Assembly: GCA_016213825.1 (NCBI GenBank)
Contig: JACQZP010000021.1
Span: 181,109-245,108, forward strand
Direction: 5' to 3'
Source of the DNA: Acetobacterium woodii
Lineage (GTDB): Bacteria > Bacillota > Clostridia > Eubacteriales > Eubacteriaceae
DNA: 64,000 bases
A program made the position numbers and the translations under genes. This document shows positions 1 to 27,295 of the stretch, piece by piece (the stretch's first letter is position 1; each line of letters opens with the position of its first letter). The notes below the pieces were generated by a model. That model worked only from the letters and a program-made list of their open reading frames with translations. It was not told the DNA's origin and did no database searches.

Positions 1-333
1 AGAGCGGTTCCGCTTGCTCATAGGCCTTTTTTGCACCCTCAATATCACCGAGGCGGCTGAGTAGATCGCCTTGGCTCTTTAGCAGATTAGCCAGCCCAAG
101 ATTGGCTTGTACCTTGATGTAGAGCGGTTCCGCTTCCCCATAGGCCTTTTTCGCGCCTTCGATATCACCGAGGCGGCGGAGTAGATCGCCTTCGCTCCTG
201 AGCAGGTTAGCCAGCCCAAGATTGGCTTGCTCCTTGATGTAGAGCGGTTCCGCTTCCTCATAGGCCTTTTTCGCGCCTTCAATATCACCGAGGCGGCGGA
301 GTAGATCGCCTTTGCTCCTGAGCAGGTTGGCCA
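1..333 (-). repeat. 120-bp tandem repeats encoding TPR units
   Basis: The same phrase, beginning agagcggttccgctt, recurs at 1, 121 and 241, an exact 120-bp period. Each unit encodes 40 residues of the pattern LLRSEGDLLRRLGDIEGAKK followed by AYEEAEPLYIKEQANLGLAN. Copies are almost identical at DNA level and differ at only a few bases. This indicates recent duplication or gene conversion of the sensor region, and the array continues past the window edge. It is coding repeat DNA and not a CRISPR array. Confidence 0.93.
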
Positions 334-2584
334 GAATAACCTGCTTCTCTGTTTTATTATGATAGTACGTGCATAATCGATCTAATACATCTTTTGAATC
401 TGATGAGAATTGATAGTAATTGCCCATCCTTAAACAAAATTCAAAAATAAATCTTTCAGTTACTTCACTTTGATCTCCCGTTGTCAAAACATTTAAAACA
501 TTAAACACTTCAGGCAAAACCATAATCATATCATTATGGGATGTCTCATGATCTGGATTATCGTTGTATGCATTATTAACTCGGTTTAACAGGGCTTGAC
601 TCCAAAGCATCTTGCTGCGTTCGCATCCCCCTGGCGAATTCTTATTGGTATACTGAAAACAAACGCCCTTAATTGGTATTAACATTGCAAGCTGCCCGTT
701 TCTGTAAAACGCTAAATTCGACTTGATGAGTTCCCGCCGTCCCTCATGCCATTCGTGTTCACTGTATAATTCCTCATGTTCCAATGTTTCTGCCAAAAGT
801 TCTTCAGATATATCCCCTTTTGCAATCGAGAGCAATCCCCAAATATCGCACGCCGATGGGATATTAACGATCCGATTCCATGACATTTTTAAGGCAATGG
901 CTAAACTGTCGTGTCTAGGATTTTGACTCTGGCTTTCTGCATCTCGCCAACGCTTAAGAACGGCGCCAATGGTAGGTTCATACGATGCCTGGGTGGCAAC
1001 CAGCACGATTGCCAGCGGATATCCATCGAGCTCAACCAGCAACTCATTAATTCTGTCTTTATCCGGATATTCAGATTTACATAATTGATTAAATAGTATC
1101 CTATCATCTGGTGGGCGCAAAGGCTTTAGATTTATTGCTTCATGCTCCCAATTCCCAGGATATTCACGGCTTGAAATCAGCAGATCAACACGAATTTCTT
1201 TCAACTGGTTCATCCAGTTCGATATTTTTTTTCGCTCATGGCTGTCTTTACTCACCCCCCACCATACATCTTCCCAGTTATCCATATAGATTATGGTTTG
1301 TTTCTTATGGTTATTCTCAGCTATGTGAGAAATTAAATAATCTGCGTACTTATCAGGCATCATTGATTCGGAAAATGTTATTCCCAGCCCCTTTGCTACA
1401 CAAACAAAAAATTGAGTGATGGTAGTTGCCTCTGCACAGTCTACAAAGGGCATGAAAGTTGAAGGGCTTTGAACAATTATTTTATTATAAACACCCTTGC
1501 AAAACTCCGTTTTTCCAATGCCTGGAGGTCCCGTCACCACAATGACGTTTCCGCCTTCTGAATTTAATAGGTAATTCACGGTCTGATCGACTTCATCATC
1601 ACGACCAACAAGCTTGTGAAATGGCTCAAAAAGTCCCGTTACTAATGCTTTTTTTTTATACCTTTCCGAAAGCTTCGTTAGTAAGGCCTCCATCGCTTCA
1701 GCATGCATTCCAAACGGATAGCAAATACAATTGATATTATGGTGAGCTAAATGTCTTCTTATTTTGTTATATTCAAGTTTAAATGATCCATCTGCTTCTT
1801 TTAAAATCGGCGCATACAGAACAGCTTGGTTTTTAGTATCTTCCGGTAAACCGACAAGTGCAAAATGATCGAGCGCATCGGAACAGGAGCGCACAACATT
1901 CATTGTTCGATCCGATGCCAGACCGCAACCCAGAAACAACATCACTCTTGCTGAGATTAACTGTCTGATGTTGCGTGGCAGTTCTTTGCTAAAATCAATG
2001 TTATGCTTGTCATTTCCATAGACATCATCATACTGACCCTTGGTTAAAACCATGTTATGCACATCGTTAATATCACCATGCAATTTAATCAGTAACTGAT
2101 GGTTTTGTTGAGCAGCTCCATCGATACGTGGTATTTCTTTTTTCGAATTCGGAAAGATGGAATCAATAGCAATATTTTCCTGCTGGAATGCCGTTTCAAT
2201 AACGCGGTCAAAATTCGTCGTCATGATTGTCCCATTCCAAATTTGAGGAATAGCGGATACGTACTCCGGCATACTGTCCAGTGTTATTTTTTTTTCAGAA
2301 AAAGTCTCCTGAAGTTCTTTCAAAAACGTGTGTTTGACAACTTCCTCCTCAAGACGTTCCGCGGCTTCTTCAAATTCTCCAGCAATAAGCATTTTGCTAA
2401 TTTCCGGTGCAATTCCATATGCGGTAGCAATATCGGTTAATAATTTGCTCCACGTTGGGTATGTCCATGCTGACATACCGGAACCGATAAACGGAATTAC
2501 ATTGTTTCTATCCATTTGTGTGCATAAACTGTCAAAAATCCCTTGATTCTTTTCATGACACCCCATTAACTCTTCAAAAGTCAT
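1..2584 (-). CDS. SIR2-like / STAND (NB-ARC-type) ATPase / TPR protein, partial
   Basis: An uninterrupted minus-strand frame of 861 codons runs from ATG at 2584 off the left edge, so the C-terminus is missing. RBS is AAGGGGG just upstream. Domains in order: a SIR2-like NAD-binding fold (GSGMS at residues 34-38, TTNFD at 122-126, KLHGD with His169); a P-loop ATPase (GPPGIGKT at 352-359, Walker-B-like IYMDNWEDVW, LLISSRE, and a GYPLAIVLV motif like the NB-ARC GLPL motif); then 40-residue TPR units from about residue 745 onward. Family knowledge: SIR2 domains fused to STAND ATPases with repeat sensors (for example Avs5-type proteins) deplete NAD on phage recognition. A defence role here is inference. 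Two A9 runs in the coding strand (1649-1657, 2287-2295) are read in frame. A toxin-like regulator cannot be excluded. Confidence 0.85.
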   Translation of the reverse strand, partial: MTFEELMGCHEKNQGIFDSLCTQMDRNNVIPFIGSGMSAWTYPTWSKLLTDIATAYGIAPEISKMLIAGEFEEAAERLEEEVVKHTFLKELQETFSEKKITLDSMPEYVSAIPQIWNGTIMTTNFDRVIETAFQQENIAIDSIFPNSKKEIPRIDGAAQQNHQLLIKLHGDINDVHNMVLTKGQYDDVYGNDKHNIDFSKELPRNIRQLISARVMLFLGCGLASDRTMNVVRSCSDALDHFALVGLPEDTKNQAVLYAPILKEADGSFKLEYNKIRRHLAHHNINCICYPFGMHAEAMEALLTKLSERYKKKALVTGLFEPFHKLVGRDDEVDQTVNYLLNSEGGNVIVVTGPPGIGKTEFCKGVYNKIIVQSPSTFMPFVDCAEATTITQFFVCVAKGLGITFSESMMPDKYADYLISHIAENNHKKQTIIYMDNWEDVWWGVSKDSHERKKISNWMNQLKEIRVDLLISSREYPGNWEHEAINLKPLRPPDDRILFNQLCKSEYPDKDRINELLVELDGYPLAIVLVATQASYEPTIGAVLKRWRDAESQSQNPRHDSLAIALKMSWNRIVNIPSACDIWGLLSIAKGDISEELLAETLEHEELYSEHEWHEGRRELIKSNLAFYRNGQLAMLIPIKGVCFQYTNKNSPGGCERSKMLWSQALLNRVNNAYNDNPDHETSHNDMIMVLPEVFNVLNVLTTGDQSEVTERFIFEFCLRMGNYYQFSSDSKDVLDRLCTYYHNKTEKQVILANLLRSKGDLLRRLGDIEGAKKAYEEAEPLYIKEQANLGLANLLRSEGDLLRRLGDIEGAKKAYGEAEPLYIKVQANLGLANLLKSQGDLLSRLGDIEGAKKAYEQAEPL

Positions 2585-2586
2585 AT

Positions 2587-2616
2587 TTAGCCCCCTTCTG
2601 TTTCAGGAATACTCAT
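2587..2616 (-). other. Nine-codon leader ORF before the SIR2-STAND gene
   Basis: On the minus strand, ATG at 2616 follows a good RBS (AGGAGATATAGCGAAA) and encodes MSIPETEGG before TAA, two bases before the SIR2-STAND start. The downstream RBS (AAGGGGG) lies inside this mini-ORF. Such spacing would couple translation of the two frames. It could be a chance reading frame. Confidence 0.3.
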
Positions 2617-2667
2617 TTTCGCTATATCTCCTATCATATCATTTTGTTTAATTACATGCAATAATAA

Positions 2668-2726
2668 GGCAAGATTATATCGACCATTTGGCAAAAAAAT
2701 AAACTCACAGGATTAAGTCCTGTGAG
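2668..2726 (-). repeat. Terminator-like dispersed repeat, copy 1
   Basis: A hairpin (CTCACAGGA, 5-base loop, TCCTGTGAG) is followed on the minus strand by a T-rich run. The same hairpin and about 35 flanking bases (aagattatatc..ccatttggcaaaaaa) recur near 10900 and 27650. In the 2617-2980 gap the rest is this repeat, a fragment of an Rpn-type gene, and AT-rich DNA leading to the sulfatase. Confidence 0.7.
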
Positions 2727-2764
2727 CTGTAAAAAGTGCTCTGTGTAACGGATCACCCATTTTG

Positions 2765-2848
2765 TTAACACGCTTTCGCCAATATCATTATTACTTCACT
2801 TCCTTTTGGATAATTTTCATCGATTTGATGAATCATTTTTTTCAGCAT
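2765..2848 (-). pseudogene. Fragment of an Rpn/PD-(D/E)XK transposase-like gene
   Basis: The minus strand encodes LKKMIHQIDENYPKGSEVIM and then ILAKAC before TAA. This is nearly identical to an internal segment (LKKMIHQIDVNYPKGSEITM) of the intact Rpn-type gene at 19378-20406. Only about 28 codons remain, with no start and no catalytic domain, so this is a decayed fragment left by deletion or recombination. Confidence 0.8.
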
Positions 2849-2980
2849 TATTTATTGAATATCTAAGATTTGTCCGGGTATATTTTTAACAATAGCATTA
2901 AACATAACAGACAGGCGATCTAACCACTTTTTTGTTTTGGCACATTTCATCGTTTTTATATTTAATCAGGAGGTCTTGAT

Positions 2981-4699
2981 ATGAATCTAAAAAAAGCGGC
3001 TCTGGGCATCACCCTGGCAACCTCTTTGCTGAGTGTGTCAGGCTGCACCCAAAGCTCATCCAGCCAGACCATCGATCAAAAAATGGCTGATGTCGATGCG
3101 CGACAGAATAGTGATGGCAATTATAATATTGTTTTTGTGACTGTGGATCAGGAGCATTATTTTGACAAATTCCCGGAAGGCACCAATTACAAGGCGCGCG
3201 AACTTCTGGAGAAAATGGGAACTACCTTTGAAAAACATTATACCTGTAGCAATGTGTCCACTTCCTCCCGGTCAGTTATTTACACCGGCACCCACATCAC
3301 CGACACCCTGATGATTGACAATACCGAATCCCCCTGGCAGGAACCGATCTCAGAAAACCTGACCACCGTCGGTGACCGGATGCTCTCAGCCGGTTACTAC
3401 TCCGCCTTTAAAGGCAAGTGGCACATGGGCGATACCAGCGTTTTTGATGACACCAGCCAACCCGCCATGCAGGAACAGAATGGCCTGCTCGGCTATGGAT
3501 TTTCTGACTGGAATGCTCAGGGTGATATTGTCGGTCAGCTTCAGCAGGGCTACATGCAGGATAGCAACATTGCCGGGGACACTGTTAGTTGGTTGCGATC
3601 CAAGGGAACTGCCACCAATGCCGCCGGACAGTCTTTTTTTCTGGCGGTTAATCTTGTCAATCCCCATGACATTATGTATTATGATACTGATACCAACGGC
3701 GAAGCCGTTCAGAACACCGGCCAAACGACCTTTGCCATCGCCGGAGCCCCGGCCAATTCGATTTATCAGACGACCTATCCAAAGGCCGCCATTCCGTCCA
3801 CCTGGAACGAGCCCATTGATGCCGCCGGACGCGTCCCTGCAGAGCTTGAATATTTCAACTTATGGAACCGCCGGGTTGGTGAAATCCCCTCCGAAGCATC
3901 GCGCTGGGAAAATTTCCGCAATTATTATTATAATTGTATTCAGGACAACGATGATCAACTCGAAAACATCTTAGCTGAATTGTCCAATCTTGATATGCTG
4001 GATAATACCATCATTGTCTTTACCAGCGATCATGGTGATATGCAGGGTGCCAACGGACTCCGGGGAAAAGGCGGATTTATGTATGAAAACAATATCCATG
4101 TTCCACTGATTATCGTCCATCCCGAATATAAAGGCGGCACTTCGATCGATGCCGTAACCAGTCATCTCGATTTGGCCCCCACTTTTATTGACATGACAAA
4201 TCTGCCGGATGATAAAAAAGCGCAAATCGCCGCCGGGCTACCAGGACACAGTCTGATGGATTTAATGGATGGCAGCAAAACGGAAATTAGAGAGGGCTCA
4301 TTATTTGCCTATGAAATGATCTCGATGATCGACAGCAACATGATGCAAACCACTGATCCGACTACCAATCTCACAACTTATCAGATTGATTATACAAAAC
4401 GGGGATTTGTCCGAGGCATTACCACCGAAAAATATAAGTTTGCCCGATATTTCTCGCCATTAACGTTTAATCTGCCAACAACTATGGAAGACTTATATGC
4501 GAATAATGATGTTCAGCTATTCGATCTGGAAAAAGATCCCAATGAATTAGTCAACCTGGCTGCCAATAAGGAAACCAATGCCGCCCTGATCATGGAACTT
4601 AACGGTCAGCTCAATGATCTGATCACCAAAGAAATTGGCGTCGATGACGGCAATGAAGCGACCACGGTAATTTCTCAGATCAACAAAACGCCAAATTAA
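2981..4699 (+). CDS. Lipoprotein sulfatase, serine-type
   Basis: A 572-residue sulfatase-family hydrolase that should cleave sulfate esters outside the cell. A lipoprotein signal (lipobox LSVSGC, Cys22) anchors it to the membrane. The metal-binding fold shows FVTVDQEHY near residue 52, GKWHMGD, NPHD, and FTSDHGDMQG with the usual late Asp-His pair. The formylglycine motif aligns as S93-T-S95-S-R97 before YTG. The family consensus is C/S-x-P/A-x-R, so this is a serine-type site with an unusual Ser at the third position. RBS CAGGAGG lies eight bases before ATG. The stop codon overlaps the start of the maturase gene by one base (TAATG), which fits a dedicated enzyme and maturase pair. The substrate cannot be told from sequence. 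Confidence 0.92.
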   Translation: MNLKKAALGITLATSLLSVSGCTQSSSSQTIDQKMADVDARQNSDGNYNIVFVTVDQEHYFDKFPEGTNYKARELLEKMGTTFEKHYTCSNVSTSSRSVIYTGTHITDTLMIDNTESPWQEPISENLTTVGDRMLSAGYYSAFKGKWHMGDTSVFDDTSQPAMQEQNGLLGYGFSDWNAQGDIVGQLQQGYMQDSNIAGDTVSWLRSKGTATNAAGQSFFLAVNLVNPHDIMYYDTDTNGEAVQNTGQTTFAIAGAPANSIYQTTYPKAAIPSTWNEPIDAAGRVPAELEYFNLWNRRVGEIPSEASRWENFRNYYYNCIQDNDDQLENILAELSNLDMLDNTIIVFTSDHGDMQGANGLRGKGGFMYENNIHVPLIIVHPEYKGGTSIDAVTSHLDLAPTFIDMTNLPDDKKAQIAAGLPGHSLMDLMDGSKTEIREGSLFAYEMISMIDSNMMQTTDPTTNLTTYQIDYTKRGFVRGITTEKYKFARYFSPLTFNLPTTMEDLYANNDVQLFDLEKDPNELVNLAANKETNAALIMELNGQLNDLITKEIGVDDGNEATTVISQINKTPN

Positions 4700-7134: not shown

Positions 7135-7671
7135 TTAAAATTTATTATCCAACAGCATCTTATCATTGATTGTTTCTGCACAGAAACGATAGAAATTTAT
7201 AAATCGTCCAAATGGGATTATCTCCATAAAAGCCCAAACAGGATAGTCATCTTTATATTTTGCAATAATATCACCGCAATAAGGATTATTCATATTACGA
7301 TAAAGCTCATTATTCAGGGTTTTTAATCGATCCTCACCCAGACTCTTAATATAATCCTCGACTAGATCATACGCATCAATATTGGAATTTTCAATCACCT
7401 TCAATAATTCTACTTTTGAGAAATGTTCAATATCAGGCGCCATATGCAGGAATGTATAACGTAGCCGCATGTCAATAATCGCAAGATCTTTAAGCATTTG
7501 AAAATCCAAGCCAATGTATTGCCCTTTAAATTTCCCATCAGGATGTTTTTGAAAATTCTTTCGATACGCAGTCAGTTTGAAATAATTATTGTGCTTTGTT
7601 AAATAATCGGTGGCCTCTTCTCTTGAAATTAGTACAAATTTTACACCTTTTTTCTCCAGATGTTCAATTTG
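7135..7671 (-). pseudogene. Abi_2-family (AbiD/AbiF-like) gene, truncated
   Basis: The frame opens QIEHLEKKGVKFVLISREEA, continues DYLTKHNNYFKLTAYRKNF and runs to DYPVWAFMEIIPFGRFINFY before stopping, about 178 codons. This matches the N-terminal two thirds of Abi_2 abortive-infection proteins, which are usually about 300 residues. No ATG, GTG or TTG lies between an in-frame TAA and the first conserved residue. The C-terminal part that carries the RNxxxH-like motif is absent. A shorter frame from TTG at 7509 would drop the conserved start. It is best read as a broken gene. Confidence 0.65.
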
Positions 7672-7974
7672 TGAGGTTGATTCCGTTTATCTTCTTTTGT
7701 ATATATTTTAATAATTTTTCCGAAAATAATAAAAAGAAAATGTACAATTGTTCTATTTCATCTACAATTATGTATATACCCCTCTATGAATTATATTTTT
7801 AAAAACAACTCTAGTCACCGTCAAACACTGCTAAGTGGTTGTTTGATAAAGCCCTATAAGGGCAGATTACTCGCTCATCTAAAGGTGGGTATCGCAATCA
7901 TTGTCAAAGTTAACTGTGCCTGTCATCGAAGCTTACTAACTTATTTTAACCCTTCAATCACAGCCTCATAAGTA
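7672..7974. other. Gene-free stretch, nothing recognised
   Basis: About 300 bases of mostly AT-rich DNA between the Abi_2 remnant and the ATPase gene. A 61-codon plus-strand frame (7786-7971) has no ribosome binding site and no recognisable motif. The two halves differ in base composition, with a less AT-rich part at 7815-7960, so part of it may be remnant DNA. Confidence 0.4.
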
Positions 7975-9594
7975 TCAACTGGTTATCGCTACATTACCAA
8001 TACAAAACTTGTTAAGAATTTCAGTCATTTCGTTCACATAATTTTGATTTAGAATTTTGTTATCTTGATTTACACTATAATCCAAAACTTGTATATTATC
8101 ATATTCATCATATTTCTTGGCATCATACTCTTCCTTTTTTAATGTGGCAGTCAGAATAACTTGTTTTTCAGTTTTCTTAAAAGTATCAATCATAATTTTT
8201 TCTTTTTGAGTTGAGATTTCTCCGCTTCTAAAGCAATCAACTATCAAAGGAAACTCATGCTCAAAATAACTGTTTAACGCAAGTAGTCTGCAATAGTAGT
8301 ATTCTTGCTCTTCACTACCTGAATAAGTTACATTTTTCTTAGTAAATAAATCATCGAATGTGAGTCTACCATTAGGATCAACTTCTAAAAAGAGAGTTTT
8401 CATAATATCAACAATTGCATATTTCATTTCAATTGCTTGCTTTTTTGCTTCTTCACTACTATTGTTAATTGAAGTATTTTTCTGCATAAGTGTCCGCAAT
8501 TCTTCATTTAGTGAATTTAATTTATTATCAAACTCAATCCCTGATAAAATTTCTTCAGAATATAACAGTATTTTTTGCAGCTCTTCGGGAGTATCTATCA
8601 AAAGCTCTTTTAGTTTATCTTGCTCTTTATGAATATTTCTACTAATTTCTGTTATTATTTCATCTTTTTGAGCCATTTGAAATTTAATAGAGTTCATTAC
8701 TTTTTGTCGTACATAAGGACTACTTGCATCAAAACTTAAGTCTCTGTTTGTATATACGATCCTATCACTTCCACAATCAGCACATATAATTTTCCCCTTT
8801 TCAATATTCCTATTTAGTGAATTCAATTCTTCAATCAATATTTCTAATCTAATTTTTCTATTTATTTCTGCTATTCGCTTCTTTTTAAAATAACCGATAC
8901 TTTGATGAGTTTTCTTCATTTTATCTCTTAGCTCAACAAAAGATAAGTCGTCACTATATTTATCTATATAAATTGATAAATTAGAATCTGTTTTTAATAA
9001 TTTCAACATTTTTTTAGTTGTGTTGATTTCTGTTTTGATTACTTTTATTTTTTCAACTATTTCTTTTGTATCTTCTTGAATATCTGTCAGCGGGTACCCA
9101 TTCAAAGTACACAACATATTTATAAAATCTTGCTTTTTGTTATAACCATAGTTTATAATATTGGATGGATTTCTCTTATCTTGACCAACAAAGAACAACT
9201 CGTAAAATAAAGATAAGTCAGCAATAACTTCGCGTCCATCTTTCATTATTATTGGCAAATCAATAATATTTTCACTTTTTAAAAAATACTTCATTTCTGA
9301 AATAGTATCAAATATATTCAACGCTGCCCTATAATTCAACACTACAGAATTTCTATGCCTTAAAAACTCAATATTTTCTCCATTGATTTCTATTTGAGTA
9401 TAGAAATAATAGCTTTCGGCAGGAAAACCACTTGGAAATATTGGTTCATTACCCAAAGCATACATTATTCCTTGAATCACTAATGTTTTACCTTTATTGT
9501 TGTCATCACTAAAGATAATATTAACACCATTGTTTAATTTATCTTCTATAAAAGCTTCCGTAAAATTACCAAATCCTGCTTTCTTAATTATCAT
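7975..9594 (-). CDS. Rad50/SMC-like ATPase of a two-gene defence-type module
   Basis: A 539-residue SMC/Rad50-type ATPase. The N-terminal lobe has an atypical Walker A, D30-D-N-N-K-G-K-T37, where the usual first Gly is Asp. Long charged helices surround a single C271-x2-C274 zinc-hook-like motif (CADCGSDRIV). The C-terminal lobe has a signature-like YSGSEEQEYYYCRLLAL (about 424-440) and a Walker-B-like FPLIVDCFRSGE (D453). It overlaps the upstream gene by 11 bases (ATG at 9594, RBS AAGGAGTC). The size, hook and a nuclease-like partner fit LmuB-type or ABC-three-component ATPases that sense foreign DNA. The exact family is not settled from sequence alone. Confidence 0.75.
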   Translation of the reverse strand: MIIKKAGFGNFTEAFIEDKLNNGVNIIFSDDNNKGKTLVIQGIMYALGNEPIFPSGFPAESYYFYTQIEINGENIEFLRHRNSVVLNYRAALNIFDTISEMKYFLKSENIIDLPIIMKDGREVIADLSLFYELFFVGQDKRNPSNIINYGYNKKQDFINMLCTLNGYPLTDIQEDTKEIVEKIKVIKTEINTTKKMLKLLKTDSNLSIYIDKYSDDLSFVELRDKMKKTHQSIGYFKKKRIAEINRKIRLEILIEELNSLNRNIEKGKIICADCGSDRIVYTNRDLSFDASSPYVRQKVMNSIKFQMAQKDEIITEISRNIHKEQDKLKELLIDTPEELQKILLYSEEILSGIEFDNKLNSLNEELRTLMQKNTSINNSSEEAKKQAIEMKYAIVDIMKTLFLEVDPNGRLTFDDLFTKKNVTYSGSEEQEYYYCRLLALNSYFEHEFPLIVDCFRSGEISTQKEKIMIDTFKKTEKQVILTATLKKEEYDAKKYDEYDNIQVLDYSVNQDNKILNQNYVNEMTEILNKFCIGNVAITS

Positions 9595-10609
9595 TTTCTA
9601 AAGACTCCTTTAAAATCGAAATTAGATATATCACACTTAATTCATCTAATAGAAGTGGTATTTTTACACTTTTACTTTTCATCTCTTGATAGATTTGACG
9701 AGGTGCTTCACATTTACTATTCCGTAATATGGATATAATACTTTCAAAAAAAATCCAGAAGTGTTTCTTGTTATTTTTATTAAATATTACTCTTGATAAT
9801 GCTGCATTACACTCCTGAATTATATCTTTTCTTTCTTCTTGATCATATTCTTTAATTTCTTCTAAAAACAAATTGGGGATCATTCTATTGGAAAATAAAT
9901 CTACACCAACAAATCTGTTAATTATCAAAATATCTATATCATTTCTATGAATAGTTTTCTCAAATTGTAAAGCTTCCTTTGCAAACTCTATGATCTTACC
10001 TTCAATGTCAATATTTTTTAATTGCGTTTGTTTATCTCTGATTTCATCAAATATGGAGACAAAGAACGTATCTTCAATTGACACAATATTTTTGAATTTA
10101 ATAATATTTTTTATGTACTCTACTTTATTCTCAGATGCAACAACAAAATATATTTTTTTGAGAAACTCTTCTATTTCAGTTTGATTTGCAGTATTACTAT
10201 TTCTTCGCAAATATTCTTTTTTTAAACCTTCCGTGATTTTTACCTTATGCTTCTCATGAAAATTATCAATAGTATATATAGTCATAGTTTCATCCTGAAG
10301 ATACATTTCTTTAAGCTTTGGCATAAACAAAATGAAATGTGTAAAGTCAATATTCGAAATATAGTTTTGGAACAGAGTAATAAGTGCAGTCCCAATCTTA
10401 GTCGGATTCAGTGATTTTACGTTTTTAGATTGTACATCCCATAGTTTTGTTACCTCTTGATTAGAGCCAGTAATATCATTGAAGCAGTCAACTAAAAAAG
10501 CATCTATTTCATTACTATCTTTTCTAAAACTTGAGAGATAGAGCATCGCCTTTGTTTCATATTCGTTAGCTTTAGCATTATTCCTTTCAGTAGTGCAGAA
10601 CTTATACAT
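9584..10609 (-). CDS. Candidate Cap4/DUF4297-like nuclease, partner of the SMC-like ATPase
   Basis: A 341-residue protein starting at ATG 10609, behind GAGGTAGAT; a TTG-started extension to 10660 has no better signal. The N-terminal region has D45 in CFNDITG and then D58-x-Q60-x-K62 (WDVQSKN). That pattern fits a PD-(D/E)XK fold of the Cap4/DUF4297 type, which often has a QxK variant. The rest is helical, charged and unrecognised. The gene overlaps the ATPase gene and is low in GC like it. Role by context: effector of a Lamassu-like module. An ABC-three-component middle subunit is an alternative. The nuclease call rests on a short motif. Confidence 0.5.
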   Translation of the reverse strand: MYKFCTTERNNAKANEYETKAMLYLSSFRKDSNEIDAFLVDCFNDITGSNQEVTKLWDVQSKNVKSLNPTKIGTALITLFQNYISNIDFTHFILFMPKLKEMYLQDETMTIYTIDNFHEKHKVKITEGLKKEYLRRNSNTANQTEIEEFLKKIYFVVASENKVEYIKNIIKFKNIVSIEDTFFVSIFDEIRDKQTQLKNIDIEGKIIEFAKEALQFEKTIHRNDIDILIINRFVGVDLFSNRMIPNLFLEEIKEYDQEERKDIIQECNAALSRVIFNKNNKKHFWIFFESIISILRNSKCEAPRQIYQEMKSKSVKIPLLLDELSVIYLISILKESLENDN

Positions 10610-10714
10610 ATCTACCTCTTTCACTTTCATACCTGCAATTATTTCAAAAATTACTATCAATGTTGTATTTTATTTGCAAAGTTTTTTGATTTATCCAAAT
10701 ACTTCTGATTAAAA

Positions 10715-10816
10715 TCAGTTATTGATTAATTTTTTCAACAGCTTTACTGCACTTGCTTCCCCTGCCTCATTCGTTCCCATTCCGGTGGAGATACCCCGTC
10801 CAGCGCCGGAAAGAGA
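10715..10816 (-). pseudogene. Possible C-terminal gene remnant
   Basis: A minus-strand open stretch reading SLSGAGRGISTGMGTNEAGE followed by ASAVKLLKKLINN and TGA looks protein-like but has no start codon or RBS. It differs sharply in composition from the AT-rich gene beside it. The SGAG..IS pattern faintly recalls the end of the serine hydrolase at 6110. Identity is unknown. Confidence 0.25.
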
Positions 10817-10871
10817 TCAGTTAAAAAACATCATTTGACTGCATCTTACACTTACCTCAATACCCGTATAA

Positions 10872-10974
10872 TCGGTTCGAATGGAACTATTGTATCATTT
10901 AATGGCACCGAAAGAAAGATTATATCAACCGTTTGGCAAAAAACCAAACTCACAGGCTGAAGGCCTGTGAGTTT
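10872..10974 (-). repeat. Terminator-like dispersed repeat, copy 2
   Basis: Shares with the copy at 27600 the stretch TTGTATCATTTAATGGC, then gaaagatt..atc, ttggcaaaaaa and a hairpin (AAACTCACAGGC, 5-base loop, GCCTGTGAGTTT). On the minus strand the hairpin is followed by TTGGTTTTTT, downstream of the VOC gene, so it could terminate that transcript. The rest of the 10610-11029 gap holds only a possible gene remnant. Confidence 0.75.
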
Positions 10975-11029
10975 AAAAAACGATCCGGGCGACGGATCAC
11001 TCATTGTATTGAAATGCTTTCGTTTCTAC

Positions 11030-18437: not shown

Positions 18438-18451
18438 TTTGCAGTATCCCA

Positions 18452-18488
18452 ATAGACCCCTTGGCCTGATAGGCCAAAGGGGTCTATT
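18452..18488 (+). terminator. Intrinsic terminator after the PNPOx-like gene
   Basis: A near-perfect hairpin with arms ATAGACCCCTTGGCC and GGCCAAAGGGGTCTAT separated by TGATA, followed by TTTATTT. Confidence 0.9.
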
Positions 18489-18615
18489 TATTTGGCAGAG
18501 TTTTCTATTACGCTTGATCAAATAATCTGGTGATGATCTAACTTTTGGCAGTTAGATCGATAAACGACTGGGTATAAACGAAATAGCGATTAACTTTTGA
18601 AACAAGGAGTACATC

Positions 18616-19272
18616 ATGGAGCGAACATTTCTCGAAATCCTGCCCTTGGCGATTGGCGCGGCCATCAGTCCGACCGGTCTTTTATTTGTAATGCTGATTT
18701 TAAGCGGCAAAGACAATTCAAAAAAAAGTGCTTTGGGCTTTGTCCTCGGCAGTACCCTGTTTTTGGCACTTCTGGGACTGATTATCTTCTTCACCGCCAA
18801 ACCCGTGGTTAATTCAACCAATCACCCCAATATCACCTCCAGTATCATTGATATTGTGCTGGGCATTCTGATTTTGGCCATTGTTGCCAAGTCCGTCTTC
18901 TTTAAGAAAAAACCCAAAACCGATGATCCCAAAAAGAAAAAGAGACCCTACCCGATTATGGGTTTTCTGTATATGTGCATTAATATTTCAACGCTAATTC
19001 CTTTTATTGCGGCAGTTAAAATTATCTCCATGAACAAGCTTGCCCCCTGGGATGGCCTCGCTATTCTCCTGGTAACCATCCTGATCACGATGTCGATGAT
19101 TGCCTTTCCAGTACTGATTACCTATGCCATGCCCCATGAATCTCAGAAAATTCTGGGTCCGGTGAATGGCTTTATGGCAAAGAACGGTGCAAAAATCGGC
19201 AATATCTATTTCGCCCTGATGGCCCTGTATCTGATTTACCATGGTGTTATGGGGATTCTCAAAATCGTCTAG
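18616..19272 (+). CDS. GAP-family (Sap/LysE-like) integral membrane protein
   Basis: A 218-residue protein with about six hydrophobic segments. It starts MERTFLEILPLAIGAAISPT, the hallmark of the GAP (Sap) family, which is related to LysE-type exporters. A charged cytoplasmic loop (FFKKKPKTDDPKKKKRP) divides two three-helix halves. Some members move glycolipids or peptidolipids across membranes. The substrate here is unknown. RBS AAGGAG lies at the usual distance. It is followed by a terminator shared with the convergent Rpn-type gene. Confidence 0.8.
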   Translation: MERTFLEILPLAIGAAISPTGLLFVMLILSGKDNSKKSALGFVLGSTLFLALLGLIIFFTAKPVVNSTNHPNITSSIIDIVLGILILAIVAKSVFFKKKPKTDDPKKKKRPYPIMGFLYMCINISTLIPFIAAVKIISMNKLAPWDGLAILLVTILITMSMIAFPVLITYAMPHESQKILGPVNGFMAKNGAKIGNIYFALMALYLIYHGVMGILKIV

Positions 19273-19338
19273 TTGATATAACCGCCAGATTGAGCTTTTT
19301 TGACGCATTTCTTTGACTTGGTCCGCCAATCGTATCCC

Positions 19339-19373
19339 AAAAACCCCTGTCAGATAATCTGCCAGGGGTTTTT
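19339..19373. terminator. Bidirectional terminator between convergent genes
   Basis: Arms AAAAACCCCTGtCAGAT and ATCTGcCAGGGGTTTTT form a hairpin with A and T runs on both sides. It serves the GAP-family gene on the plus strand and the Rpn-type gene on the minus strand. Confidence 0.9.
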
Positions 19374-19377
19374 CAAA

Positions 19378-20586: not shown

Positions 20587-21849
20587 CTAGCTACCTGCTT
20601 CAAAATCAACAAGCATCGATTCTTGTTCTAGCCGAACTTTATTTTCAATAGAATAACTAATACAATCATAGCAATCGTGAAGTTCATCTTTTGCAATGAG
20701 TGACTTTAGTTTTTGAGCGTATTTTCCCGAGATTGGAGCGGTCATTTTTTTATAATTTGCTAATTCTGATGAGTTCATTCTAAAAGGTTTTATCTCAACT
20801 AAAATTTCACGTCTTAAACGTGCTAACATGCTAAATCCTCCATAATCTATATCACTCCAATGTTCCCAAATACAGGTCTTTGACATTTTTTCTTTAATAG
20901 CAAGGAAAAACTGCTTTTTTGAAGGACTATACTGTCCCGCATGGTAAAGAACAAGTTCATCATCAGACTTGCTTTTTTGTATATATTCAAAATAATTTGC
21001 TCGATTTTCAATAGTCAAAATTCGCTTTATATCAGGTGAAATAATTAATTCTCCCGTTACCAAATCAGATATACTGATGCTACTTCCAAGTCGAAGCGGA
21101 GCAAACTCAACCACTTTTGTTGCAATCATCAGACTGATATTTCCACAAAATTCAAATATTTCAGGATATTTGACAATCCCAACCTGACGAAGTAAGTCCC
21201 CATCTCGTGTGTCATCATCACACTCCAAGTACGTTCTTAGAATACTGATGATGCGCGACCTTGCTGACTTCTCAAATTTCTTTGAGTCACCAAAACACTG
21301 TATCGAGAATACTCTTTCAGTAATTTCAATTTTATTTATACTATCAATAGCACAGATAGCTTTAAATAGCAGGTGTCGTTCCTCATTATCAGCTGGAATA
21401 GCTCTGCCAATACTACGTTTTTGATAAACTGCAGTATAAACATCCTGAAAATAGGATTTAAACCATGGAGACGACACTTGTTTATGCATTGCTAAAAGCT
21501 CCAAGCAGATTTCATCTACAACATCATTTTTAGATTTACGCCCGGCACTAGCATATACAAATTCAAGATCATCCGTATTTAACCACACTTTCGAAATGAT
21601 GTGATCACGTTCGCCTTTCATCCATTCAAATGATATCAAATTCAATTCAGCCAAATCTCTTACAGCTCGATTTACGGAAATTCGCCGCTCACTTTGCTCA
21701 ATATCATAATATGAAAAATCACTTTTGCCACCGTCATAGAAATGCAAAAGAATTCTACGCATTGGTAGCTTATTTTCTCTGAAAGAACTACTTCGCTCAT
21801 ATTTGTCAAGTAATGCCCAAAGTATGTTTCTCTGAATTTTATCACTCAT
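20587..21849 (-). CDS. jetD: Wadjet JetD, Toprim-type DNA nuclease subunit
   Basis: A 420-residue DUF3322/DUF2220-type protein and last gene of the Wadjet operon. The C-terminal Toprim-like catalytic region shows E281 (TIENRANYF), the YHAGQYSPSK segment, and D333-x-D335 (WSDIDYGGF). The N-terminal half is helical with a winged-helix look. In characterised Wadjet systems JetD cleaves small circular DNA after loop extrusion by JetABC. It overlaps jetC by eight bases. All expected acidic residues are present, so it is probably active. No terminator was seen directly after the gene. Confidence 0.9.
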   Translation of the reverse strand: MSDKIQRNILWALLDKYERSSSFRENKLPMRRILLHFYDGGKSDFSYYDIEQSERRISVNRAVRDLAELNLISFEWMKGERDHIISKVWLNTDDLEFVYASAGRKSKNDVVDEICLELLAMHKQVSSPWFKSYFQDVYTAVYQKRSIGRAIPADNEERHLLFKAICAIDSINKIEITERVFSIQCFGDSKKFEKSARSRIISILRTYLECDDDTRDGDLLRQVGIVKYPEIFEFCGNISLMIATKVVEFAPLRLGSSISISDLVTGELIISPDIKRILTIENRANYFEYIQKSKSDDELVLYHAGQYSPSKKQFFLAIKEKMSKTCIWEHWSDIDYGGFSMLARLRREILVEIKPFRMNSSELANYKKMTAPISGKYAQKLKSLIAKDELHDCYDCISYSIENKVRLEQESMLVDFEAGS

Positions 21850-24800
21850 ATATTATTTCCTCAATTTGTTTTGGATCAAAACTCCGTACGCAAGTATGTT
21901 CTCCGTTTCTCAAAACACATAGGTTCCTATCTACAAGTGTTGCAATGTCACCCATCTTGTCAGGCGGAGCCGATAAGATGACTTGAAACTCAAACTTCCG
22001 TAACAGTTCAATACTCCTGACGATTCGTTCACCATCCATTTTTGAAAAGGCCTCATCAAAAATAATCAGTCGAGATGTTGTATAGCTTTTTTCTCTTCCC
22101 ACACGATACAGTTGAGCGAAGGAAGCAAGTACAGCGATATAAAAAGGCGTCTGTGTCTCACCACCAGATTTTTTACCAAGTGTTCTTGATAACCGTTGTG
22201 ATACGCCATCATTCCCTACCACTTCAAGATCAAAATCAAGGTATGTACGGTAATCTGTAAACTCATGAACACGTTTTTCGTATTCAACGCTCCCCTTTGA
22301 ACCACCAGTTCCGTCTTCGTTGGTAATTATTGCAAATAAATCTGCAATTTCATCCTTATACTTCGCATTGAATTGTCCTGAAAGCAGATTATATCCCCCC
22401 TGAAGAAGCATTTCATCTACAATCATGTCATAATAACGTTTGTATTCTGATTTAGGTATAATACGAAACCGATAAGTATCTTCGCCGAAAGAGGCTCCCC
22501 GCAGTGCACCATTCAATTCGTCAATTTGGCGTTTAGCATTGTTTATATTGTTTTGCAATCGACTCAGAAAGTCTTCCTGGAATTGCTCAAAGGCCTTTGA
22601 TCGAGCATCTGTAATTCTAGCTAAATAATCCGATAATTTATTATCGGTGAGCTCCAGCCATACATCATCATAAACATCATTGTTTTCTGACTTAATGTCA
22701 AAACCCATTTTATACTTTTCATTGTAAGTGCGTCGCAATTCTAGCGTTTGATCCCATGCATCCTCCTTTGCGTTTTTGGTTCTACTCTTCTCTCTAGGGA
22801 AAGCGTCGGCAATATTATCGGGTTTTCCCCTCGAAGATAATTCTTGCACATATCTAGGATAACTTATTTCCCTAATCCATTCGTCATTGTATCCGGTTAC
22901 AATATCCGATTCCTTCTTTTCCTGTTCTTCAATAATTTTGGGAATGGTTTCTTCTTTTAGGTGGCGCAGTGTTTCTTCAAATTTTCCTCTGTTTTTTAAG
23001 TATTGTCGTTGTAAATTATCACGCTCTGATATATTTTCGTCCAAAGTGGTAATACGATTTTTCAAGGAATCAATAGCGCTTGTATCGATTGCTTCACGAC
23101 TTTTTCGCAGTGTGGTTAAATCCGATTCAATCGTGGGGATAAACGAAAAGTTATCGGCAGCTAAAACGATATGCTCTATTTCAGGATTACTCAATAAAGT
23201 TAATGCATTGATATAATCAAGCCCAATTTTTATGCCCGTACAAACGGCGACTTGCTCCGTCAAAAAAGCAATCTCTTGTTTAACCGATTCAAGTCGTCTT
23301 TGAATAGCGCTTTGGCCAATGGCTGGTTTTTTCCAGCGATCCGGATTCATTGCCCTGACAACAAAGTTTTGATATAACATACCTTCGTCAGTCACCGAAG
23401 TCTGAAACCGTCGTAACTCGCTCACATTGTAACACTTTTGAACACGCCCTAATGTGTAATATAAGAACACTTTTACATCCAAGTCATCTGTTTCAATCTC
23501 TTCTGCCAAACTTCCCATATTTGCTGTAGGATTTAATCGTTTTAGTTTTTCAATATCGACAATACCAGTACCATAAATTGCTTGTTTACGTTTTATTGTA
23601 TCATAGACTTTTAGAGCCTCTTTAAAATATTCCTGTGGCACAATGATGTAAAATTTTTGCGTATTGAGATAACCTTCAATAACATTACGCCAGCGGTCAC
23701 TTTTAATTTCAGCGGTTTCTGCAACAATACGCACATTGACGTCCAACTTGGCAATTGTGCGCAAATGAGAAATCAACGCCTTCTTCAAATCAAGCACATT
23801 CTGTGGGAAACGATAAATTCCACCTTCAAGCGATTGCTGTTCGGCTAAAAGAACCGATCGCAGCCTTGCCAAAGTGTCCTGCTCATCCCGAAAATGCGAC
23901 GCCAATTCGATGGAATGTCTTTTTAAATTGTCAGTGTTAGTAGAAAATTGAATCAGCCCGGATTTACCCACATTCAGAACAGTATCTATATCCACATTTA
24001 AGAGGGACTCGCTACCGTTGAGAAAGTCACGCCCTTCCATACAGATATCGCTGATGCGGAATGCTGTACCTGGTTGCAATAGGCTTATTTCCATTGATCC
24101 GATTTTTTGAAGCATTGCTTTCGTGTATTTTCGCCATGTTGAAATATGTGACGCAAGGATTGCAAGCGCCTTTTCAAATTCAGTTAAGAGTGTTTGGATT
24201 TTACACTCTTTTTCAGTGATCTGACGATCAATTGTGTCTAAAGCTTGCGCAGTGCTGTCATTTGACAGTTGCGCATATAATGTGTCTCGTTGCTCACGGA
24301 GTTTTATTAGTCGAATATCCTCTTCCGTTATTTCTTTATTCAAAACAACAAGTTGCTTTGTTACACTTTTTTCGCTCGCCAGATTTAAATCCAGTTCGAT
24401 TCTTTTCATATCTGCACACGCACGATCAATTAAATAAGAATATAGCTGTTCATTGTCTCGTTGTGTGATATATCTTTGATGCATATTCTCAATTCTTTCC
24501 AACAATAAAATTCGCTCTTTGAGAACATCGGCTTCTGCTTCTAGCCGTTTATAGCTTCTGATGTTTTCTTGCATATAACTCACATCAACAGCCTGCTGCG
24601 TATCACACACAAAATCAGAAATAAATTGCTGAATATCCACATTGGGGTTAAAAGATACAGCCTTTTTAAGAATCCCTGCAAATCGATCGCGTAAACCGCC
24701 CAGTTTGCCATATAGTTTTGTTCTGAAATCTCGACCAATATCAGTTGTTTCACAATGACCTGCATAGCATTCTTTTAGGTGATTGCGCAATGCAGTAATA

Positions 24801-25243
24801 TCCATTGGTGTATTCCCACTCAAAAATCCATTATGATGCATTTCACCATCATAAAGAAAAAAACGTTTTTGTATGTCGTTTTCTGAATGTATATCAAAGC
24901 AACACCCTGCAGTAAAGGCTCGTTTCTTTTCTGTATCATAGAATTCCAATACAATATAACTTGTAAATCTACCACCACTTCTAATATAATGAAACCCTGA
25001 ATTTTCATCATCACCCAATTCGCCCATGAGATAGCCCTTTAAAGTCCGATTTCCACGTCCGCTTGCCGCTTTATTAAAAAAGTTACCGCTTGTATCTCCC
25101 AATAATATCAATTGCAAAGCATCAATAATAGTAGATTTTCCCGAGGCATTTTTTCCTGTGAGAAAATTAAGCTGCCCGAATTCAATTAATTCATAATTAA
25201 AATAATGCCAATGAATCAACAGAAGTTTGCGTAAAATTTTCAT
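21842..25243 (-). CDS. jetC: Wadjet JetC, SMC/MukB-like ATPase
   Basis: A 1133-residue SMC-like motor. Walker A is GKNASGKS at residues 30-37 (FLTGKNASGKSTIIDALQ). Two long coiled-coil regions flank a hinge-like middle. The C-terminal lobe has signature LGKKSGGETQTPF and Walker B RLIIFDEAFSKMD. The protein resembles MksB/SbcC-like JetC, which extrudes DNA loops and recognises small circular plasmids. Start ATG 25243 overlaps the jetB stop (ATGA) behind GGAGGACTTAGA. Both ATPase lobes are intact, so the system looks functional. Confidence 0.94.
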   Translation of the reverse strand: MKILRKLLLIHWHYFNYELIEFGQLNFLTGKNASGKSTIIDALQLILLGDTSGNFFNKAASGRGNRTLKGYLMGELGDDENSGFHYIRSGGRFTSYIVLEFYDTEKKRAFTAGCCFDIHSENDIQKRFFLYDGEMHHNGFLSGNTPMDITALRNHLKECYAGHCETTDIGRDFRTKLYGKLGGLRDRFAGILKKAVSFNPNVDIQQFISDFVCDTQQAVDVSYMQENIRSYKRLEAEADVLKERILLLERIENMHQRYITQRDNEQLYSYLIDRACADMKRIELDLNLASEKSVTKQLVVLNKEITEEDIRLIKLREQRDTLYAQLSNDSTAQALDTIDRQITEKECKIQTLLTEFEKALAILASHISTWRKYTKAMLQKIGSMEISLLQPGTAFRISDICMEGRDFLNGSESLLNVDIDTVLNVGKSGLIQFSTNTDNLKRHSIELASHFRDEQDTLARLRSVLLAEQQSLEGGIYRFPQNVLDLKKALISHLRTIAKLDVNVRIVAETAEIKSDRWRNVIEGYLNTQKFYIIVPQEYFKEALKVYDTIKRKQAIYGTGIVDIEKLKRLNPTANMGSLAEEIETDDLDVKVFLYYTLGRVQKCYNVSELRRFQTSVTDEGMLYQNFVVRAMNPDRWKKPAIGQSAIQRRLESVKQEIAFLTEQVAVCTGIKIGLDYINALTLLSNPEIEHIVLAADNFSFIPTIESDLTTLRKSREAIDTSAIDSLKNRITTLDENISERDNLQRQYLKNRGKFEETLRHLKEETIPKIIEEQEKKESDIVTGYNDEWIREISYPRYVQELSSRGKPDNIADAFPREKSRTKNAKEDAWDQTLELRRTYNEKYKMGFDIKSENNDVYDDVWLELTDNKLSDYLARITDARSKAFEQFQEDFLSRLQNNINNAKRQIDELNGALRGASFGEDTYRFRIIPKSEYKRYYDMIVDEMLLQGGYNLLSGQFNAKYKDEIADLFAIITNEDGTGGSKGSVEYEKRVHEFTDYRTYLDFDLEVVGNDGVSQRLSRTLGKKSGGETQTPFYIAVLASFAQLYRVGREKSYTTSRLIIFDEAFSKMDGERIVRSIELLRKFEFQVILSAPPDKMGDIATLVDRNLCVLRNGEHTCVRSFDPKQIEEIIYE

Positions 25244-25899
25244 TCTAAGTCCTCCGGCTTTTCATCTTCTATCAACATTTCCAGTTCGGCATTTTCAGTT
25301 TGGAGTTCTTCTAATTCTATCATCATGTCGTTAATTCCCTGGTTGGAAATAATGGACAGAATAGATGGAAAAATTAACACGCCATTTCCTTCAGTGCTCC
25401 AAGCTGTGTTTTCGGTTTTTTGGATGATGTTAAAATGTGAAAGGGCACGTTGCGCTTCAAGCCGCTCTTTTTGTGTTGTTTTTCCTTTATTGAGAAGCCC
25501 CAGCATCCTCATCTTCTCAACAATAGACCCTGTATCTGTTGGCACAATGTGTAGATTATCGCCCTGTTCACGACCTTCTTCATACATCAATCGACATGTG
25601 TAAAGAAACAGTGTCGTAAAACGATCCATACGCAGTCGGTTGTGATCATATTCATTTATAAGTGATATAACGCCATAGTTATCATCCTTTTCCAGCTTCC
25701 AGCCAGAAACCCAAAAATAGTCGCGCATACATTCAAATAAACGATTAACCATTCTGTAATCCCCGTTGGGTTCAGTCCATTGTTTATCAGGTTTATATAA
25801 ATCGCGGACCAGATACGTATGCGACAAAAGGTAATTGGCTAGCCTACGAAATTCACCTTTTTCGTAATTGGACAAAGATTCAAAAATCTCACTCCACAT
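25240..25899 (-). CDS. jetB: Wadjet JetB, kleisin-associated MksE-like subunit
   Basis: A 219-residue DUF4194/MksE-like protein. FRRLANYLLSHTYLVRD and a central winged-helix-like region (RMDRFTTLFLYTCRLMYEEG) are typical, and the end is a short acidic tail. JetB dimers bridge JetA to the JetC motor. It overlaps jetA by 11 bases and jetC by four, so the genes are translationally coupled. RBS AAGGAGGTG lies inside jetA. The call rests on both sequence and order in the operon. Confidence 0.88.
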   Translation of the reverse strand: MWSEIFESLSNYEKGEFRRLANYLLSHTYLVRDLYKPDKQWTEPNGDYRMVNRLFECMRDYFWVSGWKLEKDDNYGVISLINEYDHNRLRMDRFTTLFLYTCRLMYEEGREQGDNLHIVPTDTGSIVEKMRMLGLLNKGKTTQKERLEAQRALSHFNIIQKTENTAWSTEGNGVLIFPSILSIISNQGINDMMIELEELQTENAELEMLIEDEKPEDLE

Positions 25900-27295
25900 T
25901 GTTTTGCACCTCCTTTTTAATAATGGTCATATTAGGAATAACATATCCGTTCCGCTGAATTCTACCTTTCCCTATCTCAATGGTATATGGCGTACCTCTG
26001 TCATTTTCACGAATTACAGCCAAAATGAGTAGAATAAAATCGGAATCACTTGAAATTTCAATATTCTTAGCCTCAATCCGACTAGCACCCTCTCTAAAAA
26101 GATTATTAACAAAAGCACGGATCTTCGCAGTAGAATATCCTTTTTTTATTTGTTCCCAAAAGTATTCTTCCGCAAAATCAGTAAGGGAATCATCTAACTC
26201 TACAGTGAGCGGCGTTGTATTTATGCGTCGGCTTTTAACATTTTTATGATATAAGGACTGTGAATCAAAAAACTCCTGCCTGTTAACGCAAATGTTTTTC
26301 TCCATAATCTCAGCAAGTTGGTCTCGTCTATCGTCTCTAGTTCTCGCGTATGTCTTTAACAGTTCTGCAAGCTTCCCTTTTATAGTCTGATCTGCGGTCA
26401 TCAGGTATTGGATTTTCTCAATGGAGCTCTTAGTATAGATGCTGTGTTTACGATCTATCTCGCCAACAAGGTCTCCAACTGTCTGATATGCGTCCAAAAT
26501 ATAATCAATATTTCTGATAATTTCTTCATCGGCTGCTGCCTCATTTTCATACTTTTTTATACTTATAGCGCGATCACGCATCGTTTCCATCAGTTTGTCA
26601 TCGGCCAGTATTTCTGTTAGTAAACTCTGAATCGGAGCCATATACCGATGAACTGAGTCCATTGTCTTAATGGGATGATAGATGCGATCCGACATTTTTT
26701 TGTACTCACCAAAGTGATCCTTCAGAAGCAGATTGACATCTTGTTGTTCTACAATACTCCGAAGAAAACCGCGTATCCCATGATAAAGGGTTCGTAATGC
26801 ATATTGCAATTGTTCTGTATTTGCTTTTGCAGATAAAACAGCCTCATACATATGCGACTCATTCTCCGTTTTGGCTTGTTTTAATCCGGAAAAGGTTGCA
26901 AAAACCAGAGAGTTGTATTCCTGCAGTGAACTATTTCCCAAATCGCTGAGCACTTTCATGATAGCTATCGCATAACTGCGTGGGGTGATGATTTCAATAA
27001 AAGAACCATCAAGAAATTCTTTATCAACCCAACCAGATCTGACAAAACGATTTAAAATTAGACGAGCTTTTCCGCTAAGGGTTAGTCCACCGTCTTGAAT
27101 CTCATCGTCTTCCTCAAGTTCAAAAGATCTGTCCTCTAGGATTGCGATTAGAGATGAAATATAGTCGTCCACTCGAATATTCAATTCGAACTTGAACATT
27201 TCATGAAGAATCATCAGCGCATCAAAATAGATCTCCCGATTACCAGAAGATAAAACTGAGAAAAAATTACCCGGAATCACATCAAATAGTTTCAA
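25889..27295 (-). CDS. jetA: Wadjet JetA, kleisin-like subunit
   Basis: A 468-residue JetA of the DUF5716-like group, beginning KLFDVIPGNFFSVLSSGNRE. It is the first gene of the operon. It acts as the kleisin that closes the JetC ring. The start codon is TTG at 27295, supported by AAGGTGAT eight bases upstream and by the conserved N-terminus; no closer ATG is possible without losing it. This JetA type differs from the DUF3375 JetA of type I Wadjet, so the operon is probably another subtype. Subtype assignment is inference. Confidence 0.88.
   Translation of the reverse strand: MKLFDVIPGNFFSVLSSGNREIYFDALMILHEMFKFELNIRVDDYISSLIAILEDRSFELEEDDEIQDGGLTLSGKARLILNRFVRSGWVDKEFLDGSFIEIITPRSYAIAIMKVLSDLGNSSLQEYNSLVFATFSGLKQAKTENESHMYEAVLSAKANTEQLQYALRTLYHGIRGFLRSIVEQQDVNLLLKDHFGEYKKMSDRIYHPIKTMDSVHRYMAPIQSLLTEILADDKLMETMRDRAISIKKYENEAAADEEIIRNIDYILDAYQTVGDLVGEIDRKHSIYTKSSIEKIQYLMTADQTIKGKLAELLKTYARTRDDRRDQLAEIMEKNICVNRQEFFDSQSLYHKNVKSRRINTTPLTVELDDSLTDFAEEYFWEQIKKGYSTAKIRAFVNNLFREGASRIEAKNIEISSDSDFILLILAVIRENDRGTPYTIEIGKGRIQRNGYVIPNMTIIKKEVQNNVE

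Follow-up and report, generated by a model that had tools for sequence, protein, structure and literature searches.

The window analysed here, 64,000 nucleotides of an Acetobacterium woodii assembly (GCA_016213825.1; G000:C10:181109-245108, where G000 is the window's own genome), begins inside a gene for a protein that joins a SIR2 domain, a STAND ATPase and an array of tetratricopeptide repeats (TPRs). We consider it probable that this SIR2-STAND-TPR protein is an NLR-like anti-phage receptor whose array evolves by gain and loss of repeats and by change in the repeat groove, so that its relatives differ in what triggers them. In its build the protein resembles immune receptors of plants and fungi: one end is predicted to destroy NAD, a second part is predicted to be an ATP switch, and the third is a stack of near-identical repeats. 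An intact full-length gene encodes all three parts and their motifs, and in many, not all, members of its family the repeat array is the hypervariable part. A first-pass annotation of the sequence had supposed that a sensor of nearly identical TPRs would be a distinctive variant; that idea is upheld and now extends to many family members.

The gene occupies window 1..2584 on the minus strand, where its open frame (2-2584) holds the N-terminal 861 of 1,147 codons and exits the left window edge. Following the frame leftward in the same assembly, as the first-pass annotation had advised, yields one uninterrupted gene (G000:C10:180249-183692, minus strand; protein P0003, 1,147 aa), and every motif which that annotation had listed in the 861-codon frame was located. 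The SIR2 NADase-like domain (window 1655..2557, minus strand; approximately residues 10-310) carries GSGMS at residues 34-38, TTNFD at 122-126 and KLHGD at 167-171, and matches SIR2_2 (PF13289) over residues 119-248 (E 2.3e-22) in a Pfam search that covered the first 861 residues. N124 of TTNFD is kept in 47 of 47 aligned family sequences and H169 of KLHGD in 46 of 47 (alignment A1, which like the AlphaFold run comprised P0003 and 46 of the 120 listed relatives); H169 aligns with KomC H146. The STAND ATPase, of NB-ARC/AAA type (window 785..1615, minus strand; approximately residues 324-600), has its Walker A motif GPPGIGKT at 352-359, Walker B D435, an SSR motif and GYPLA (521-525) in the position of the GLPL motif. 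Pfam matches it to AAA_22 (residues 344-456, E 8.3e-8) and NB-ARC (residues 329-442, E 2.8e-5); nSTAND6 matches are weak and PF20720 (nSTAND3) gives none at E 0.001 in these 861 residues, although the homologs P0008 and P0036 do carry PF20720 in precomputed annotation.

A helical/winged linker (window 344..784, minus strand; approximately residues 601-747, with boundaries taken from the AlphaFold model) leads from the ATPase to the TPR array, whose start lies at window 1..343 on the minus strand, with 2.8 of its 7.3 copies of a 120-bp unit inside the window. The copies match at 87% overall and the C-terminal part hits TPR_12 (E 2.4e-9). At the protein level the array consists of seven TPR units of 40 residues each and a divergent eighth unit resembling a cap, followed by 80 C-terminal residues; DNA identity among units 1-7 is 82-94%, units 5 and 7 being the closest pair.

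The fold agrees with the domain assignments, so that SIR2 and STAND similarity, which the first-pass annotation had wanted checked, is clear both by Pfam match and by structure. The AlphaFold model has a mean confidence score (pLDDT) of 87.4. Ranked by Foldseek E-value, its first match in the PDB is the SIR2-STAND protein EfAvs5 (9jap, 2.1e-12), although with template-modelling (TM) scores of only 0.18/0.24; next come the STAND-TPR protein 6mfv (2.8e-12), the AVAST5 filament 9nc9 (4.6e-11), and then TPR proteins and DSR2. An Avs5 chain is absent among the best 50 rows of a second structural aligner, which is uninformative either way. The SIR2 fold resembles those of ThsA, KomC and DSR2, and the PADLOC matches of P0003 are to ThsA, LmuA, Dsr1, PDC-S and other SIR2 models. 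We predict NADase activity for the SIR2 domain from its sequence and modelled fold.

The evidence that arrays change in this family comes from pairs of genes whose cores are nearly the same. We found 41 pairs with core identity of at least 90%; two were dropped for unequal C-caps, leaving 39 pairs formed by 31 genes in 10 clusters, with pairs within a cluster not independent of each other. In 27 of the 39 pairs the two genes differ in unit number and by a matching length, and for 25 of these 27 the difference in length is a multiple of 40 to within 3 residues. Such differences occur in six of the 10 clusters, the arrays varying by whole units between constant flanks. The most extreme pairs are P0072/P0081, with no core difference in 675 aligned columns and three versus two units, and P0015/L012, with cores 98.4% identical and five versus 11 units; the count of 11 in L012 is unsafe because of a 775-bp exact repeat, and with L012 set aside the unit range is 2 to 9 and 26 pairs differ.

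The units themselves differ as well. The anchored first unit has a mean identity of 0.792 between pair members against 0.945 for the core, and is lower than the core in 36 of 37 pairs. Between the window gene and its near-twin P0005, 7 of 58 array residues differ versus 5 of 747 core residues (Fisher p 4e-6). In the cluster of P0012, P0017, P0019 and P0022, which have four long arrays, all 24 internal units are distinct, and a partner matching at 38 or more of 40 residues was found in only 2 of 72 internal-unit comparisons versus 35 of 54 core blocks. Partner counts of this kind are biased low where the partner allele has few units; hence the long-array subset and the anchored first unit were used.

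To place the variation within the unit, we started from 99 genes, of which 19 gave no unit by the motif rule and 39 had at least five, and kept 25 of these after clustering at 70% core identity. What we take to be the TPR consensus residues G8, A20, F24 and A27 align with unit positions 12, 24, 28 and 31. The concave face of a TPR is lined by canonical positions 5, 9, 12 and 13 (PMC1261162), and the groove positions 9, 13, 16 and 17 of our unit are derived from that numbering rather than measured on the model. Across the 25 non-redundant genes, diversity is highest at positions 9, 16 and 17 of the 40. Within arrays, mean diversity is 0.609 at the four groove positions versus 0.423 on the helix-B surface, and is higher at the groove in 18 of 25 genes (p 0.003). 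Replacement change per site (pN) rises in order, from 0.061 at structural positions through 0.148 on the helix-B surface to 0.325 in the groove; with ten genes pooled, its ratio to silent change (pN/pS) is 0.18, 0.51 and 0.86 for the same three classes. The window gene's own array has pN/pS of 0.23/0.16 in the groove and 0.10/0.33 in helix B. On these sequence comparisons, evolution of the groove appears to be relaxed or diversifying.

Several observations weigh against a receptor with a changing array. First, unit number does not really differ in 12 of the 39 near-identical pairs or in four of the 10 clusters; nine of the 12 pairs have equal counts, and the other three (P0061/P0066/P0067) have equal length with degenerate units missed by the motif rule. 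A subclade of approximately 949 aa keeps short arrays of dissimilar units. Second, the contig of P0005, the near-twin of the window gene, ends inside the array, so that unit counts are incomparable and the array differences between the two could be assembly error. Third, units are more alike within a protein than to those of other proteins in only 20 of 40 proteins, leaving strong concerted evolution only half supported, and shuffled units between sister alleles appear in only two of 135 comparisons, both in one cluster. Fourth, groove position 13 ranks only 13th of 40, and the loop position 40 is level with position 17. Fifth, P0003 has no Avs5-named PADLOC match at E 0.001, the presence of such a model in the library being unchecked. 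Finally, the pooled array pN/pS is 0.58 and that of the groove 0.86, so positive selection at the groove is not demonstrated.

This last point lends itself to another explanation, namely that we are dealing with an ordinary Avs5-like SIR2-STAND defence protein whose repeats were recently duplicated and drift neutrally, so that array differences carry no meaning for recognition. Replacement is not in excess of silent change, some family members have stable arrays, and highly repetitive WD40 proteins that arose by recent repeat duplication are known in prokaryotes (PMC5587647). Furthermore, TPRs in general vary most on their concave face (PMC1261162), and concave-face variation alone is therefore no proof of selection for new specificities. 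However, the variation is ordered across the three site classes in the way given above, and random sets of four of the 31 surface positions reach the groove mean in only 15 of 20000 draws, a test that was not blind, because the codon profile was viewed before the position set was fixed. We hold neutral drift to be rather unlikely, while giving it a real share.

A second possible objection is that the repeat-number differences are largely assembly error, short reads having led to the collapse or wrong joining of near-identical repeats. For fungal NLRs with repeats of this sort, short-read assemblies cannot be relied on (PMC12222747), many of the relatives lie on short contigs of unstated sequencing method, and L012 is a case in point. 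Against this, the longest exact array repeat in the window gene is 89 bp, and in 30 of 31 genes, L012 excepted, no exact protein repeat beyond residue 700 is longer than 32 residues (approximately 100 bp); this list of 31 includes every gene, 24 in all, from the six varying clusters and one near-varying cluster, and its lengths omit seven of the 31 paired genes, all from clusters without a difference. The C-caps are intact, all but two of the 27 length differences keep to multiples of 40 as described, and the sequence differences among the units themselves are not explained by collapse. We think it quite unlikely that assembly error accounts for most of the polymorphism.

The trigger may also be something other than a phage. 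Fungal NLRs with such arrays serve in non-self recognition (PMC4986451, PMC12222747), and by the same token the protein might guard against other bacteria, plasmids or non-self strains; yet a phage protein is what activates the SIR2-STAND protein PaAvs5-1, and protection against phages has been found for other Avs5 proteins that were tested (PMC12931631), which makes such a role improbable to us. The slimmest chance of all goes to a STAND signalling or regulatory protein of the AfsR type with no defence role. Regulators do occur among STAND-TPR proteins, the family profile is matched in its TPR part by AfsR, and 6mfv, a STAND-TPR structure, is one of the top fold matches; but the output domain is a SIR2 domain like those of ThsA, KomC and DSR2, its Asn and His kept, Pfam finds no DNA-binding domain in the first 861 residues, and the gene is sporadic and sits amid defence genes.

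Under the anti-phage receptor reading, a phage molecule would bind the groove of the TPR array; a phage as the trigger is suggested by the Avs precedent and by the defence neighbourhood. By analogy with STAND proteins and Avs5, trigger binding would release the ATPase and lead to assembly. The SIR2 domain, given its conserved Asn and His and its likeness to the ThsA, KomC and DSR2 folds, would then destroy NAD+, and the loss of NAD+ would arrest the infected cell. Avs5 proteins hydrolyse NAD+ once infection is recognised, and an early phage protein activates PaAvs5-1, whose immunity is lost when its C-terminal helices are deleted (PMC12931631). Unit number would change by recombination or slippage between the 120-bp direct repeats; as substrates for unequal recombination or slippage, these would allow whole units to be gained and lost in frame.

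A bolder proposal, to which we give somewhat less than even weight, is a bacterial modular receptor repertoire, in which a fixed, NAD-destroying SIR2-STAND core is combined with a TPR array that recombination and mutation continually rewrite per allele, in unit number and at the groove, the alleles of a population together forming a library of phage specificities. If true, this would parallel, in bacteria, the arrays of fungal NLRs; the 40-residue type of array is also seen behind SEFIR/TIR and alpha/beta-hydrolase domains. The proposal bears on how a single-protein bacterial receptor keeps pace with fast-evolving phages; the authors of the Avs5 study themselves ask why closely related SIR2-STAND systems diverge so much in specificity (PMC12931631). 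With near-identical cores joined to different arrays, the family is suited to a direct test of whether repeat number and groove residues set specificity, and if specificity follows the array, fungal-style diversification of NLR sensors would be placed in bacteria.

Among the closest known systems is Avs5 (AVAST type 5; EfAvs5, PaAvs5), to which the first-pass annotation had linked the gene. The architecture is shared (N-terminal SIR2, central STAND NTPase, C-terminal helical-repeat sensor), and EfAvs5 leads the Foldseek ranking by E-value. The NTPase of the window protein is NB-ARC/AAA_22-like, whereas that of PaAvs5 is reported as nSTAND3, and in place of a long regular array of 40-residue TPRs PaAvs5-1 has one TPR and one Sel1 motif (PMC12931631). 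The joining of SIR2 to STAND stands by sequence and fold, while Avs5 membership is not established, PADLOC giving ThsA, LmuA, Dsr1 and other SIR2 models instead. The protein is built like Avs5 and likely works like it. Among the defence SIR2 NADases, ThsA, KomC and DSR1/DSR2 share the SIR2 fold, with sequence matches to ThsA, Dsr1 and KomC. To our knowledge, neither ThsA nor KomC has a STAND-TPR part of the kind seen here.

The array pattern itself resembles one described in fungi. NLRs of Podospora with WD, TPR or ANK arrays have a STAND core, near-identical repeats, repeat-number polymorphism and variation on the concave TPR face; unlike the fungal proteins, for which positive selection has been shown (PMC4986451), ours is bacterial and has a SIR2 effector. 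The fungal cut-off for near-identical repeats, more than 85% identity over at least 100 residues, is not reached by the window gene (mean 0.80 over seven units), nor by the family mean of 0.60 in 40 proteins, while L012 (0.86) and P0012 (0.85) stand at it. Repeat-number polymorphism of the fungal type is present in the family (27 of 39 pairs, six of 10 clusters), the window gene itself having no complete near-identical allele for comparison, and the fungal type of concave-face variability is seen in the top three ranks of positions 9, 16 and 17. Two other comparisons are more distant. Multicellular bacteria have STAND proteins with a C-terminal sensor diversified by diversity-generating retroelements, but there the target is a lectin fold mutated by a reverse transcriptase (PMC10907252) instead of a TPR array; no reverse transcriptase was seen among the part of the window genes that was scanned. 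The repetitive prokaryotic WD40 proteins share recently duplicated near-identical repeats in bacteria but have another repeat fold, and the main text of that paper has no hit for NLR or immune (PMC5587647). In the literature that could be searched, which leaves out most subscription papers, we found no account of bacterial SIR2-STAND proteins whose TPR arrays vary in repeat number. A fungal-NLR-like array pattern in a bacterial SIR2-STAND family thus seems to be new.

The family is wide and scattered. Of 7,993 candidates scored in a protein search, 128 were relatives, 120 of them listed; the best full-length relative among the matches listed is P0004 (77% identical, 1,303 aa), from a digester metagenome. 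Single-protein searches of the genome and viral collections gave no relative, and the family alignment then gave 54 and five loci, respectively. Twenty-two of the 54 genome loci (L012-L031, L034, L035) match from the SIR2 start, and the remaining 32 match nothing before residue 262, only the ATPase or ATPase-TPR part; four of the five viral loci match the SIR2 part only and one the ATPase part only. SIR2-start loci in named genomes include Lachnospiraceae, Oscillospiraceae, Christensenellaceae, Ruminococcus, Olsenella/Atopobiaceae and a Methanophagales archaeon, and one Olsenella bin holds three copies of the family gene; such taxonomic scatter suggests horizontal spread. Some ATPase-TPR relatives carry other N-termini, either SEFIR/TIR (L036, L037) or an alpha/beta-hydrolase (L033, L047), and the best repeat period is 40 in all seven ATPase-TPR relatives examined, in L036 over 1.9 copies only. 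At L022 the start of a second SIR2-STAND gene lies in tandem behind the first (373-3288, 3970-4647), the second frame having only 226 codons. At L030:9968-12654 a family member is broken into two frames, which may reflect a pseudogene, a sequencing error or phase variation.

Turning to the locus, the gene is sporadic. Counting its own genome, it is present at E 1e-3 in one of the 19 genus genomes searched (none of the 18 others) and at E 1e-30 in one of 40 from its taxonomic family (none of the 39 others); in a class sample, four of 391 genomes match at E 1e-20, own included, with most of the protein covered in two (own and G053) and one part only in the other two. This is not the distribution of a housekeeping gene; confinement to housekeeping contexts was among the findings that the first-pass annotation would have counted against a defence role. 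The gene occupies a single-gene replacement between two genes that are neighbours in the close relative G010. These flanking genes, for a sulfatase and a YjbR-like protein, have counterparts in G010 that are 97% identical and 324 bp apart, with the SIR2 gene absent. Flank homology ends at C10:180030 and C10:183950, enclosing 3,919 bp here and 167 bp there. The right end of the inserted stretch lies at approximately window 2843, a point feature without strand; rightward of 2842 the DNA is 95% identical to the gene-less G010 locus. At this junction is an 87-bp scar (window 2760..2846, minus strand), which matches a section of the Transposase_31 (YhgA-like) gene at window 19378-20427 with 87% identity; that gene adjoins the Wadjet operon described below.

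We also asked whether the SIR2 gene might be cargo of the phage-like remnant to its left, which encodes a D5-type primase, a transcription regulator, a holin and an endolysin. We judge this unlikely because G010 has the same remnant (94-95% identity) and not the SIR2 gene. The YjbR-like gene by the insertion (L005:15134-15514) has several full and fragmentary copies in some genomes of the genus (e.g. G005 and G015), which suggests a plastic region. No known RNA element was found upstream by Rfam at gathering scores, in the window or in L084, and counts of promoter-like and terminator-like sites fall inside the range given by shuffled sequence.

The first-pass annotation had placed the gene in a 27-kb stretch with three other defence-type loci, and these are found within 27.3 kb, all on the minus strand: an AbiD/Abi_2-like fragment (window 7135..7509), which is a frame of only 124 codons; the pair PDC-M22B and PDC-M22A (window 7975..10660; E 2.1e-195 and 2.5e-124), which is a candidate system; and a complete Wadjet type I operon, JetD, JetC, JetB and JetA (window 20587..27295). 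The PDC-M22 stretch (7150-10800) and the Wadjet stretch (18440-27590) hold different genes in G010 while their flanks remain collinear, so the 27-kb stretch appears to consist of distinct sites, each swapped on its own. A dispersed repeat of approximately 100 bp with a terminator-like hairpin lies at window 2671..2778 (minus strand), 87 bp 5' of the SIR2-STAND gene. It has four genomic copies at E <= 1e-5: two further copies in the window, at 10866-11022 (5' of PDC-M22A) and 27595-27704 (5' of JetA), and a fourth at G000:C10:171725-171831. The SIR2-STAND gene, PDC-M22A and JetA thus each have a copy approximately 90-300 bp upstream. The repeat occurs in 10 of the 19 genomes of the genus and may mark a hotspot of cassette exchange; at the G010 sites matching the last two of these three copies, the repeat is followed by other cargo, a DEAD/ResIII helicase gene at one and a MatE-HATPase gene at the other.

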